Of a stretch of DNA of 64,000 nucleotides, positions 44,337-53,201 are shown in pieces. The position numbers and the translations under genes were made by a program. Every line of letters starts with the position of its first letter. Within the stretch, counting starts at the first letter, position 1. The notes beneath the pieces are model-generated. The model did no database searches, was not told the origin of the DNA, and was given only the letters and a program-made list of their open reading frames with translations. The DNA comes from Dictyoglomus sp. NZ13-RE01 (GTDB lineage Bacteria; Dictyoglomota; Dictyoglomia; Dictyoglomales; Dictyoglomaceae), in contig NIRF01000004.1 in assembly GCA_002878375.1 (NCBI GenBank), positions 62,001 through 126,000 of the forward strand, written 5' to 3'.

Positions 44337-45395
44337 TTAAAATCCTATCTTTCCACTTAAAACTGCAGTAGTTATATTATTCGCCAATACATCATATGCA
44401 ACCCCAGCATCAATTTGCATTAATAGAAGATTAATACCAGCTCCTAAAGTATAGTAAAAGGGATTTAGATTCAAGTCAGTTATTGCTCCAGCCCTTAAGG
44501 ATAGTAAAACAAAAGGAATCTCAACACCAATATGAACTGTCTTCTCTCCCATCTCAGGATACCAAATATCTGCCAAAGCCTTAATTCCCAAAATAGGAAC
44601 TTGTGCCATTACCCCTAATCTATATTCTCTTTCTGGTAAATCTAAATTAAAATCTGTATTTTGGGAACTTGTAGAAAGCCAAGTAGAATATAAATTTTTG
44701 CCCACTAATCCTAATCTTAAAATTGGGGTAATGTTTAATAGAACCCCTGCATCCACTTTTACTCCATACCCAACCTGAGAACTCGTATAGGTTGTTCCAT
44801 TATTATAATCATAGACTTCTTTTTGCCCTCTTATTCCTGCAATATTAATTCCATATCTTAGTTTAGCAAGTCCCAAAGGAAGATTTGCAAGAGAGGATGC
44901 AAAAGTAACATTTAGGGTAGTTTGGTTATTTCCTTCCGCATGAAGGGTTGCAGTTTGTGTTGATTCAATGTTAGCATTAAAATTACCATCAAAATAATTT
45001 GTCATAGCCAAAGAAAAGTTTCTAAACCTTAATCCCCCAGAAATTCCAAGCTTTAAAGTACCATCATATTGTTGTGGAGAAGAAGGAGCTTCACCTTGAG
45101 ACAAGCTTTGGAATAAATCCAAAACCTTTCTCCAATTCTCTAAATTTTGAGGATCTAAAGGAGAAAGACTTATAGATAAATTTCCTCCTAAACCTAATAA
45201 GGAGCTTTTTTCTAATCCTGCAGGATTCCAAAGAAAGGAAAAGCTTGGATCTGATAGAGCGGTAACAGCCCCTCCAAGACCAAGAGCCCTGGAATCAAAA
45301 AGAAGTTCAGGAGAAAGATTTGGAACAATATTAGAGGCAAAAGATACTGAGAATAAAAATATTGTAACTAAGGCAAAAAGTTTGATAAGCCTCAT
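44337..45395 (-). CDS. Outer-membrane beta-barrel protein, PorV/UPF0164-like
   Basis: The 352-aa protein has a signal peptide (RLIKLFALVTIFLFSVSFAS), then the conserved start ALGLGGAVTALSDPSFSFLWNPAGL, as in PorV/FadL-like barrels, and alternating beta strands to a C-terminal aromatic residue (SGKIGF). It is expected in the outer membrane; transport or assembly roles are possible. AAGGAGGTATCAAA precedes ATG. A CRP-type palindrome lies at about -41.5 of its predicted promoter. The sequences at 49426 and 52365 are of the same broad type. Confidence 0.8.
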   Translation of the reverse strand: MRLIKLFALVTIFLFSVSFASNIVPNLSPELLFDSRALGLGGAVTALSDPSFSFLWNPAGLEKSSLLGLGGNLSISLSPLDPQNLENWRKVLDLFQSLSQGEAPSSPQQYDGTLKLGISGGLRFRNFSLAMTNYFDGNFNANIESTQTATLHAEGNNQTTLNVTFASSLANLPLGLAKLRYGINIAGIRGQKEVYDYNNGTTYTSSQVGYGVKVDAGVLLNITPILRLGLVGKNLYSTWLSTSSQNTDFNLDLPEREYRLGVMAQVPILGIKALADIWYPEMGEKTVHIGVEIPFVLLSLRAGAITDLNLNPFYYTLGAGINLLLMQIDAGVAYDVLANNITTAVLSGKIGF

Positions 45396-45431: not shown

Positions 45432-45437
45432 ATTTTA
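45432..45437 (-). promoter_or_regulatory. -10 box for the outer-membrane protein gene
   Basis: TAAAAT on the minus strand; the predicted start is near 45425, with the centre of the TGTGAT...ATCACA palindrome 41.5 bases upstream, the class II activator position. Confidence 0.4.
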
Positions 45438-45458: not shown

Positions 45459-45474
45459 TGTGATTAATATCACA
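45459..45474. promoter_or_regulatory. CRP-type operator between outer-membrane protein gene and pduL
   Basis: TGTGATTAATATCACA fits the CRP consensus TGTGAT-N4-ATCACA exactly. It lies between divergent genes; it is well placed to activate the minus-strand gene and could also act on pduL from about -55 to -60. Confidence 0.6.
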
Positions 45475-45568
45475 AAAATTAAGAATAAACAAATTTGGAA
45501 AAAAGTGGTAAAATATACATGGATAAATTTTTTAATAGAATGTAAAAATCTCAAGGAGGAGTTTGAAA

Positions 45569-46174
45569 ATGGAAGAAATAAAAGTACCGATTGGAGTCTC
45601 TGCAAGACATATCCATCTATCAATGGAGGATAAAGAAAAACTTTTTGGAGTTGGTTACAAATTAACCCCAAGAAATCCCTTATCACAACCTGGTCAATTT
45701 GCTTGTGAGGAAGAGGTGGAGGTAATAGGTCCTAAAGGAAGAAGTCTTAAATTAAGGATCTTAGGACCAGAAAGAAAAGCAACTCAAGTAGAAATATCTC
45801 TTACTGATGCGATTTTCTTAGGCTTAAATCCACCCGTAAGAGATTCTGGAGATATTGAAGGAACTCCAGGGATAAAGGTTATAGGTCCCAAAGGAGAGAT
45901 TGAGCTACCAAAAGGAGTTATTATTGCCTGGAGACATATCCATACTCCTACAGAAATTGCTGAAAAGTTGGGATTAGTAGACAAACAACTTGTTAAGGTA
46001 AGACTTGGTAAAGAAAGAGCCCTTATATTTGAGAATGTTCTAATAAGAGTTAGTGATAAGTTTGCCTGGGAACTACACATAGATACTGATGAGGCAAATG
46101 CAGCTATGGTCAGAACAGGAGATATTGCAACATTAATTTTAGAAGACGCAAGAGAAAAGATATTGCTAAAATAG
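45569..46174 (+). CDS. pduL: Phosphate acyltransferase, PduL type
   Basis: The 201-aa protein is two PduL beta-barrel repeats with zinc-binding SARHIHLS near the start and AWRHIHTP in the second half. It converts acyl-CoA and phosphate to acyl phosphate, probably acetyl-CoA to acetyl phosphate for ATP by acetate kinase. It lacks an encapsulation peptide and no microcompartment gene is near, so it is probably the cell's general phosphotransacetylase. ATG at 45569 has AAGGAGGAG; the in-frame TTG two codons upstream is less likely. Confidence 0.93.
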   Translation: MEEIKVPIGVSARHIHLSMEDKEKLFGVGYKLTPRNPLSQPGQFACEEEVEVIGPKGRSLKLRILGPERKATQVEISLTDAIFLGLNPPVRDSGDIEGTPGIKVIGPKGEIELPKGVIIAWRHIHTPTEIAEKLGLVDKQLVKVRLGKERALIFENVLIRVSDKFAWELHIDTDEANAAMVRTGDIATLILEDAREKILLK

Positions 46175-49425: not shown

Positions 49426-50280
49426 ATGAGGAAAGTTATCTTACTGAGTTTTATAATTGTGATTCTTCTAATATCTCAAAGTTTTGCAAGTTTTCCTCCT
49501 ATGCTTCTAAATGCAAGGGCAGTAGGATTAGGCGAAGCATACTCCGCTCTTTCCGATGATTGGGGAGCTTTAGTATACAATCCTGCAGGCTTAACCTATG
49601 TAGATAAAATTAATGTTGGTTTTACCCACTTAGAAATGCCAGAATCTTGGACAAGGGTTGAATTTTTAGGAGGAGTATTACCTCTAAACAAAATTTCCTT
49701 GGGATTTGGTGCATCTCTTAAAAGTATTGCAAACTCTGAAGAACTTTTATTTCCTTTCTCTGAAAACGCCTTCCAAGTCAGCGTAGCAAGTAAAGTTATG
49801 CCAAACTTAAGTTTAGGCGCTACTTTATATCTCTATCTAACCACATTAGATACAGGTTCTGCTCAAGGTTTTGGTGTAGACTTAGGAGCAATATACGAAT
49901 TAAATCCTAATATAAATCTTTCATTAGCTCTATATAATCCTGTTAGCTATTTAAAATGGTCCACAGGTACAGTAGAAAATGTAGAAAGAAAAGATGTAGT
50001 TTTAGGAGGAATGTTTAAATTAAATTTAGGAAATATTCCTCTTAAATTTTTAGCGGATGTTTCTCTTCTTGAAAAGATAAACTTTTTAAATAGAGTTCAT
50101 GTTGGAACAGAGGTAAATTTCCTTCCATTCTTAACTCTAAGAACAGGATATGATGGGGCAAAAGAAGGTGTAACTTTTGGTTTAGGCGTAAACTTTTCAA
50201 ATTTGAATTTTGACTATGCCTTTTTATATACTCAGGCACTAACACCTCAACATGTAATCAGCTTATCTGGAAAATTTTAA
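49426..50280 (+). CDS. Outer-membrane beta-barrel protein, PorV/UPF0164-like
   Basis: The 284-aa protein has a signal peptide (RKVILLSFIIVILLISQSFAS) and the same motif as the gene at 44337: NARAVGLGEAYSALSDDWGALVYNPAGL. The rest is amphipathic beta strands ending in SLSGKF. It is predicted to be an outer-membrane barrel. ATG at 49426 is chosen with GGAGG ten bases upstream; the TTG at 49417 would be too close to the SD. It follows the M6 protease gene, from which a hairpin separates it. Confidence 0.82.
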   Translation: MRKVILLSFIIVILLISQSFASFPPMLLNARAVGLGEAYSALSDDWGALVYNPAGLTYVDKINVGFTHLEMPESWTRVEFLGGVLPLNKISLGFGASLKSIANSEELLFPFSENAFQVSVASKVMPNLSLGATLYLYLTTLDTGSAQGFGVDLGAIYELNPNINLSLALYNPVSYLKWSTGTVENVERKDVVLGGMFKLNLGNIPLKFLADVSLLEKINFLNRVHVGTEVNFLPFLTLRTGYDGAKEGVTFGLGVNFSNLNFDYAFLYTQALTPQHVISLSGKF

Positions 50281-51193: not shown

Positions 51194-52138
51194 ATGCCAT
51201 TAGTAAGTACAAAGGAAATGTTCAAAAAATGTTATGGTAAATATGCGATAGGTGCTTTTAATGTAAATAATATGGAGATATTACAAGGAGTAATAGAAGC
51301 AGCAAAAGAAGAAAAAGCCCCATTAATTCTACAGATCTCAAAAGGAGCAAGGAACTATGCAAAACTTGTTTACCTAATGAAACTTGTAGAAGCAGCTATG
51401 GAGGATGCGCCAGATATACCTATTTGTGTCCACTTAGATCATGGAGACTCCTTTGAGCTTTGTAAAGAGGTTATTGATGCTGGATTTACATCTGTTATGA
51501 TCGATGGATCTCATTTACCTTTTGAGGAAAACGTAGCATTAACAAAGAAAGTTGTAGAATATGCCCATCCAAGAGGAGTTGTTGTGGAAGGAGAGCTTGG
51601 AAAACTCAAGGGAATTGAAGAGCATGTAGTTTCTGCTGAGGACGTTTTCACAGATCCTGATGAGGCAGTAAAATTTGTAGAACTTACAGGAGTAGACTCC
51701 CTAGCTATTTCAATTGGTACAAGCCATGGAGCTTATAAGTTTAAGGGAGAACCAAAACTTGATTTTGACAGATTACAAGAGATTGCTAAGAGACTTCCAG
51801 GATTTCCATTAGTTTTACATGGTGCCTCTTCTGTTCCTCAGGATTTGGTAGAAAAAGCCAATAAATATGGTGCAAAAATTGGAGGAGCAAGGGGAGTTCC
51901 TGAAGAGATGATAAGAAAGGCAACAACCATGGGAATTTGCAAGGTTAACATCGATACTGATTTAAGACTTGCCTTAACAGCTACTTTAAGAGAGCAATTT
52001 TACCTTCATCCAGAAGAATTTGATCCAAGAAAATATTTAGGACCAGCCCGTGAAGCCATTAAAGAGGTGGTAAAGCACAAATTAAGAGATGTCCTTGGGT
52101 GTAGTGGGAAGGCGGAAGAGATTTTACAATCTAAATAA
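51194..52138 (+). CDS. fba: Class II fructose-bisphosphate aldolase
   Basis: The 314-aa zinc aldolase has CVHLDHGDSFE (catalytic Asp and zinc His), VEGELGKLKGIEE, SIGTSHGAYKF (zinc His), VLHGASSVP (zinc His) and KVNIDTDLR for phosphate. It splits fructose 1,6-bisphosphate in glycolysis; the GatY/KbaY type on tagatose bisphosphate is a close alternative, and a PfkB kinase of possible tagatose type lies elsewhere in the window. GGGAGG precedes ATG; it stands alone with its own terminator. Confidence 0.93.
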   Translation: MPLVSTKEMFKKCYGKYAIGAFNVNNMEILQGVIEAAKEEKAPLILQISKGARNYAKLVYLMKLVEAAMEDAPDIPICVHLDHGDSFELCKEVIDAGFTSVMIDGSHLPFEENVALTKKVVEYAHPRGVVVEGELGKLKGIEEHVVSAEDVFTDPDEAVKFVELTGVDSLAISIGTSHGAYKFKGEPKLDFDRLQEIAKRLPGFPLVLHGASSVPQDLVEKANKYGAKIGGARGVPEEMIRKATTMGICKVNIDTDLRLALTATLREQFYLHPEEFDPRKYLGPAREAIKEVVKHKLRDVLGCSGKAEEILQSK

Positions 52139-52141
52139 AAT

Positions 52142-52167
52142 AAAGGAGGGGATTAATCCCCTCCTTT
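52142..52167 (+). terminator. Terminator of the aldolase gene
   Basis: AAAGGAGGGGATT and its complement form a perfect 26-base palindrome followed by T. Confidence 0.85.
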
Positions 52168-52262
52168 TAAACTCTTAAACCAATCTAAACCTTTCCCCAT
52201 CAATACACCAAATCCCATTTTATCCCGTATGTTCAATGCTATATTGGAAATTGAATAATCTA

Positions 52263-52301
52263 TGTGATTAAAATCACAAAAATTCTGTGACAAATCTCAC
52301 T
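52263..52301 (+). promoter_or_regulatory. Tandem CRP-type operators upstream of an outer-membrane protein gene
   Basis: TGTGATTAAAATCACA (52263-52278) is a perfect TGTGAT-N4-ATCACA site. A second, TGTGACAAATCTCACT (52286-52301), matches TGTGA-N6-TCAC. Centres are 23 bases apart. With TATAAA at 52323-52328 and a start near 52335, the second site is at -41.5 and the first at -64.5, the classic activator positions. Confidence 0.6.
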
Positions 52302-52364
52302 GATCTTCCTTTACAAGCATTCTATAAAATAATAGAATAATATTGTTAAAAGAGGTGAAAAGGA

Positions 52365-53201
52365 ATGAAAAGATTATTTCTTACATTGATTTTTATTGCA
52401 TTTTTAATATCCATTACCTTTGCTCAAGGGAGCGATGAGTATGAAGCAAAATCCCTTGGTATGGGAGAGGTTTTTGTTACCTTAGATGGGAATGGTGAGA
52501 CTTACTTCTTTAATCCTGCTACTTTAGTCCTCAAAAAATATCCACAACTTTCTCTATCCTTTGATTATCCATACAAAGATAACCTAAATCTAAAACTAAA
52601 CTACTTCTATCCTTCTACTTCCTTTTTTGCCATCTCTGTTAATTTAATCTATGATATAGAAAATAATTCTTATAACTTTGAAAACTGGAAAGGAGGAATA
52701 GCTTTTCCTCTAACCCCAAATCTATCTTTTGGCACAAGTTTCCAATTTTTAAAAGAGGAAAATTCCCTAAAAGGAAATTTAGGATTAATGATAAATTTAT
52801 GGGGAACAATAAGAGCAGGTCTCGTAGGTTATGGATATACTGTTAAAAAGGTTTCTGACAAAGAGTATCTTTTGACATTGCCTGAGGGCTATGCTATAGG
52901 TCTAAGCCTTAAGCCTTTTAGTAGTACAAGTTTATATGTAGATTTAGTAGACGTGGTGAATTATAATAAAGAAAATAGCTGGGAATATCTAAGATTTGGA
53001 TTAGAACAATGGATAGGTAACTTTTTAGCCCTCAGATGGGGCTCTATTGGTGATATAACCAATCCATTGAATTATACTTTGGGAGTCGGATTAAGACTAA
53101 ATATATTACAGATTGACTTTGCTACTCTTTTAGGACCAATTATAAATCAACAGGAATCTAATAACCAAAAGTATAAGATAACAGGAAGTATAAGATTTTA
53201 G
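52365..53201 (+). CDS. Outer-membrane beta-barrel-like protein
   Basis: The 278-aa protein has a signal peptide (KRLFLTLIFIAFLISITFAQ), the shortened motif KSLGMGEVFVTLDGNGETYFFNPATL also seen in the other two barrel genes of the window, and beta strands ending ITGSIRF. It is probably a small outer-membrane barrel. GAGGTGAAAAGG precedes ATG. Two CRP-type sites precede its promoter. It overlaps the convergent corrinoid adenosyltransferase gene by four bases. Confidence 0.78.
   Translation: MKRLFLTLIFIAFLISITFAQGSDEYEAKSLGMGEVFVTLDGNGETYFFNPATLVLKKYPQLSLSFDYPYKDNLNLKLNYFYPSTSFFAISVNLIYDIENNSYNFENWKGGIAFPLTPNLSFGTSFQFLKEENSLKGNLGLMINLWGTIRAGLVGYGYTVKKVSDKEYLLTLPEGYAIGLSLKPFSSTSLYVDLVDVVNYNKENSWEYLRFGLEQWIGNFLALRWGSIGDITNPLNYTLGVGLRLNILQIDFATLLGPIINQQESNNQKYKITGSIRF

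Follow-up and report, generated by a model that had tools for sequence, protein, structure and literature searches.

Two CRP-type sites lie upstream of a gene for a secreted beta-barrel protein in Dictyoglomus sp. NZ13-RE01, and we consider it likely that they belong to a class II regulon of envelope proteins under cAMP-CRP, in which the sites at barrel genes form unusual abutting pairs. The sites, their spacing, their conservation, the geometry of the -10 hexamers and the presence of one candidate regulator are observed. CRP is a textbook bacterial activator, mostly tied to carbon supply; in this family of thermophiles, remote from the model bacteria, the CRP regulon is predicted to concern the cell surface and to include its own predicted source of cAMP.

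The analysis covered one window, a stretch of 64,000 nucleotides (G000:C4:62001-126000), and a family set of seven genomes (G000 to G006). G000 to G002 represent a sister genus of Dictyoglomus, here called g1, and G003 to G006 represent Dictyoglomus proper (g2); the G006 assembly is 72% complete. A perfect CRP-type site was defined as TGTGAN6TCACA, and the reversed pattern served as the control.

The focal locus and its conservation

Both CRP-type sites occur where the preliminary description had placed them, and their centres are 23 bp apart (Table 1). The claimed position of these centres at -64.5 and -41.5 holds given an assumed +1 at 52335, and the TATAAA hexamer at 52323 is present. Between the barrel promoter and the upstream gene, putatively aldolase-like, stands a terminator-like inverted repeat; the aldolase-like gene is outside the regulon.

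Table 1. Positions of the features discussed; plain numbers are positions in the window.
Feature	Position	Strand	Remarks
Distal CRP-type site TGTGATTAAAATCACA	52263..52278	.	Centre 52270.5; 0 mismatches
Proximal CRP-type site TGTGACAAATCTCACT	52286..52301	.	Centre 52293.5; 1 mismatch
Putative -10 TATAAA	52323..52328	+	Centre 32 bp from proximal site, class II position
Ribosome-binding-site-like stretch aagaggtgaa	52350..52359	+	Read from sequence
278-aa secreted beta-barrel protein gene	52365..53201	+	ORF; PorV/FadL-like by fold
Class II fructose-bisphosphate aldolase-like gene, upstream	51194..52138	+	ORF; then terminator-like hairpin
Terminator-like inverted repeat aggaggggattaatcccctcct	52142..52168	+	Read from sequence
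CRP-type site TGTGATTAATATCACA	45459..45474	.	Exact match
Putative -10 TAAAAT of minus-strand barrel gene	45432..45437	-	32 bp from 45459 site
352-aa barrel protein gene	44337..45395	-	ORF; member of barrel profile A5
Phosphate propanoyltransferase (PTAC) gene, divergent	45563..46174	+	PF06130, E 1.8e-76
Hsp20-Lon/barrel shared sites	L088 2693-2731; L099 2061-2099; L093 2013-2051; L072 1501-1516		

No Pfam family matched the 278-aa protein, and its structural model reaches a mean pLDDT of only 63.8. The first PDB matches in Foldseek were a Type 9 translocon chain, presumably PorV, and then FadL, at a TM-score of about 0.4 for this low-confidence model. The PorV and FadL barrels are thus its best fold matches, but at about 13% identity they are far from it in sequence.

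Orthologues of the 278-aa gene are present in all six other family genomes, that of G006 being truncated by a contig end; a scan of genome contigs with the 278-aa protein as query found no relative. Both sites are kept in front of the G001 orthologue (one mismatch each) and, in degenerate form, in front of that of G002 (two mismatches each), with the 23-bp spacing in both. The gene upstream in these two genomes is a divergent one, where the window has the aldolase-like gene, and the sites are kept all the same. Loss of the second, proximal site had been named as a point that would count against the original reading; the site persists with one mismatch in G001 and more weakly, with two, in G002. 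No site was found upstream of the orthologues in G003, G004 and G005.

The window holds another site, at 45459, which the preliminary description had grouped with the focal pair; it too is an exact match, and it has no partner at 23 bp. It is flanked by the divergent PTAC gene and by the minus-strand gene for a 352-aa barrel protein with a weak, below-cut-off match to TraF_2. On the PTAC side there is no -10 at class II distance; because a -10 lies 32 bp away on the opposite side, the site is assigned to the minus-strand barrel gene, which it is predicted to serve rather than the PTAC gene.

Extent of the predicted regulon

A profile search recovered six barrel genes in G000, four of which have a site upstream; the two without one are 49426-50277, in the window, and C2:41515. 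The former lies directly 3' of a long secreted M6-peptidase-like gene and may be in the same operon. Sites also precede a PEGA/DUF4384 gene (G000, G001, G002, G004 and G005) and Fn3-like genes (G000, G001 and G005), and lie between an Hsp20-Lon operon and a barrel gene (G000-G002 and G005). The suggestion that barrel proteins of this lineage form a regulon under a CRP-type activator is supported. The four G000 barrels with a site agree with it, as does a -10 position that fits a class II activator, but the scope is wider, taking in secreted proteins of the PEGA/DUF4384 and Fn3-like kinds, the cyclase operon, and pyrE or its divergent neighbour. The sites of the focal gene are missing from Dictyoglomus proper, and G002 lacks the class II -10.

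Motif abundance

At up to two mismatches the window has 25 motif matches against 21.2 in shuffles, which is no enrichment, and the claim therefore depends on the strong sites. The window has two perfect sites; in 300 sequences simulated with a second-order Markov model the mean was 0.01, and not one of them contained two perfect sites or a pair. Across the 1.93 Mb of G000 there are six perfect sites and no match to the reversed pattern; the counts are eight and six in G001 and G002, again with none reversed, and 0, 0, 0 and 1 in G003 to G006, against 2, 0, 0 and 0 reversed. When one mismatch is allowed, the excess over the reversed pattern is weak in G000 (27 against 19), with 40 against 13 in G001 and 32 against 18 in G002. 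The looser pattern WGTGAYNNNNRTCACW, with W at its ends and Y/R inside, gave 10, 14 and 11 matches in G000 to G002, against 0, 0 and 0 reversed, and 1, 2, 7 and 1 in G003 to G006, against 1, 0, 0 and 1. Sites in the latter four genomes tend to mismatch at the outer bases, and almost none is perfect. Dictyoglomus proper has kept the regulator and the cyclase, and its motif or regulon looks as if it had drifted.

Paired sites

A search for two sites exactly 23 bp apart, with up to three mismatches, returned three pairs in G000, four in G001, one in G002, none in G003, G004 or G005 and one in G006; its control gave none in any of the seven genomes. This search presumes the spacing, and the flanks were therefore scanned openly as well, over 200 bp on each side of the 37 g1 sites at up to two mismatches: all ten partners lay at +23 or -23, and none at any other spacing. 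Beside 13 single sites, the position at 23 bp held no weak partner (5 to 9 mismatches). Seven of the eight g1 pairs precede a barrel gene, and the remaining one precedes a gene for a secreted Fn3-like protein. In a count limited to perfect pairs across 386 genomes, pairs spaced 16-46 bp occurred in seven genomes, and the 23-bp spacing only in G001.

A full CRP site spans 22 bp, so that sites with centres 23 bp apart abut. The fixed 23-bp pair would be a simple layout for two CRP dimers at one class II promoter. A limited search of the literature on tandem CRP spacing, to which Tebbutt 2002 reportedly belongs as a tandem-CRP study, found no paper that treats a 23-bp class II pair. For G001 and G002 we also considered that the two sites of the pair might act at -41.5 on separate divergent promoters, one each; the hexamers on the divergent side lie at 19, 26, 29 and 52 bp, and the idea is unsupported because no divergent-side -10 falls at 31-33 bp.

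Promoter geometry

A -10-like hexamer was defined as a match to TATAAT at five or more of six bases, with its distance measured to the midpoint of the proximal site. The set comprised the 56 site-gene orientations in which an ORF begins 10-330 bp from the proximal site. Of these, 29 have such a hexamer at 31-33 bp, whereas mononucleotide shuffles (n=2000) gave a mean of 5.6, a standard deviation of 2.2 and a maximum of 15. The rows lack independence, because each orthologue enters as a row of its own, as does each side of some sites. The 31-33 bp spacing is the position predicted for a class II activator (-41.5). The distance is 32 bp at the focal promoter and 31 bp at its G001 orthologue, and the G002 orthologue has no -10 at 31-33 bp. 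Seven rows dropped from the set were checked by hand, with the intragenic sites G001:C10:55268, G001:C18:74745 and G002:C5:27529 left out: a -10 was found on the plus side of L090 (31 bp) and of L016 (32 bp), and none at 31-33 bp on the minus sides of L090 and L016, the plus side of L097 or the divergent sides of L002 and L003.

Candidate regulator and cyclase operon

Each of the seven genomes encodes exactly one protein with a cNMP-binding domain (CRP/FNR-type). The 226-aa regulator matches PF00027 (1.3e-27) and PF13545 (2.5e-19). Complete copies also carry the Crp helix-turn-helix and are encoded between a divergent gene, presumably dnaA, and another that is presumably pseudouridine-synthase-like. 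The closest relatives of solved structure belong to the CRP family and include E. coli CRP as well as, presumably, M. tuberculosis and corynebacterial members. In all six aligned copies the recognition helix reads SRET[AT]xR, with R190, E191 and R195 invariant; CRP has the same R/E/R residues, with which it reads TGTGA. The cAMP pocket has E82, R91 and S92 (phosphate cassette) and N137 invariant, with Ala136 at the place of E. coli CRP T127 in all six proteins. T127 contacts cAMP and takes part in the cAMP switch, according to part of one report (PMC10127613).

A PF00211 cyclase was found in six of the seven genomes and missed in the 72%-complete G006. The operon order in G000 is FecR protein gene, CHASE2-adenylate-cyclase, GAF-HD protein. 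Class III cyclases use Asp for metal and Lys with Thr/Asp for base binding, together with Asn and Arg. FADIR, DKFxGD and [YF]TAIG..VNLA.R are present in the five full-length cyclases, whose key residues (Lys, Thr) appear adenylate-type. The FecR gene, which opens the operon, is preceded in all three g1 genomes by a lone site with a TATAAT 31 bp away; in G003 and G004, which do have the cyclase and the regulator, no site was found upstream of the operon at up to two mismatches. A further class III cyclase domain is encoded in G001 (L120, G001:C10:77396-77911), absent from the matches of the other genomes.

Proposed mechanism and alternative explanations

We propose that the focal sites are operators for the sole CRP/FNR-family protein, encoded beside dnaA and probably loaded with cAMP from the CHASE2-type class III adenylate cyclase. 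On the proximal site, at about -41.5, the regulator would activate, in the class II manner, a promoter with a -10 that lacks a good -35; at barrel genes in particular, a second dimer would sit on the abutting distal site, 23 bp further upstream, and would probably bind cooperatively. Outer-membrane barrels, other secreted proteins and, as feedback, the cyclase operon would make up the regulon. DNA binding, cAMP as ligand, activation and cooperativity are what we infer here from sequence. Several observations weigh against the model: the degenerate sites and missing -10 of the G002 orthologue, the missing sites at the focal orthologues of three Dictyoglomus genomes and at the cyclase operon of G003 and G004, Ala136 in place of T127, the two G000 barrel genes without a site, and the small excess of one-mismatch sites over the control in G000. 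The alpha C-terminal domain of RNA polymerase lies just upstream of CRP in class II complexes. The distal site is where this domain sits, so the pair must act by cooperative occupancy or by moving the domain, and this relation of pair to domain is the part unlike known layouts.

The model can be extended, tentatively, to an envelope surveillance loop: the CHASE2 cyclase and FecR would read the state of the envelope, cAMP-CRP would switch the barrels via 23-bp pairs with the second dimer replacing the alpha C-terminal domain, and the single cyclase-operon site would provide feedback. We hold this extension to be possible but somewhat doubtful; if true, the cooperative switch would be reserved mostly for barrel genes.

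The sites could instead mediate repression, with an upstream TATATT/TATAAT promoter driving the gene and the CRP-type protein acting as a roadblock or overlapping the start. Upstream of the distal site, G001 and G002 do have a TATAAT and the window has a TATATT, and the G002 orthologue without a class II -10 would fit; however, the regulon-wide -10 at 31-33 bp downstream of the sites is what an activator requires, and the upstream hexamers of G001 and G002 may be those of the divergent gene, though on that strand they lie 29 bp from the distal site and not 31-33. Repression seems to us decidedly improbable. That some other palindrome-binding factor owns the sites, above all the redox repressor Rex, seems to us extremely improbable. 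A Rex-type N-terminal domain is encoded in six of the seven genomes and the half sites are alike, but the Rex motif, TTGTGAA-N-TTCACAA, needs A after GTGA, whereas 38 of the 40 half-sites have T or C there and none has A; moreover, G001 has the most sites yet no Rex match. On these two grounds Rex was rejected as owner.

In a variant that overlaps with our preferred cAMP-CRP model, the regulator would respond not to cAMP but to cGMP or another ligand, or to none. The CRP family includes proteins that bind other ligands, and Ala136 for the T127 equivalent in six of six aligned proteins points in this direction; against it stand the invariant Glu82, Arg91, Ser92 and Asn137, as well as the cyclase operon, a predicted target in g1 whose enzyme has adenylate-type residues. 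We regard this variant as unlikely.

Comparison with known systems

The promoters resemble class II CRP promoters of E. coli in the TGTGAN6TCACA motif, the recognition-helix residues, the -10 distance and the absence of a good -35, and are unlike them in the abutting second site at -64.5 and the fixed 23-bp spacing. The classical maxima for E. coli CRP sites, as given in part of one source, are -41.5, -61.5 and -93.5 (PMC5957442). In Campylobacterota, by the account in part of another, a CHASE2 adenylate cyclase, a FecR protein and a phosphodiesterase share one cluster (PMC9239204). The association of CHASE2 cyclase with FecR recurs here, with an HD-domain protein joining them; unlike the cluster as presented in that part of the source, the one described here itself carries a CRP site, alongside an envelope-gene regulon. 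The Clr regulon of Sinorhizobium meliloti shares a cAMP-type CRP regulator, a FecR-domain target and a CHASE2-bearing cyclase, and differs in its motif (TGTTN8AACA), in its phylum and in that no tandem pairs are described in the portion of the paper on which we draw (PMC5498481). Neither cAMP nor CRP nor cyclase is mentioned in the main text of the genome paper on D. turgidum, and a limited search of the open-access literature found no title on CRP or cAMP in Dictyoglomus, which leaves it unproven that the subject is unpublished.

Other sites

At the divergent sites shared by the Hsp20-Lon operon and a barrel gene (Table 1), TATAAT lies at 27, 19, 19 and 26 bp on the Hsp20-Lon side. With this spacing the site would overlap the -35, and activation of the barrel gene by CRP may go together with repression of the chaperone-protease operon. 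G001 and G002 each have a site-like palindrome within a murA-like coding sequence (L130 2046-2061 and L134 2030-2045), where it may reflect coding constraint only. A perfect site of G002 (L094 1720-1735) lies between a GGDEF-like gene and an apparent tRNA-Ser gene.
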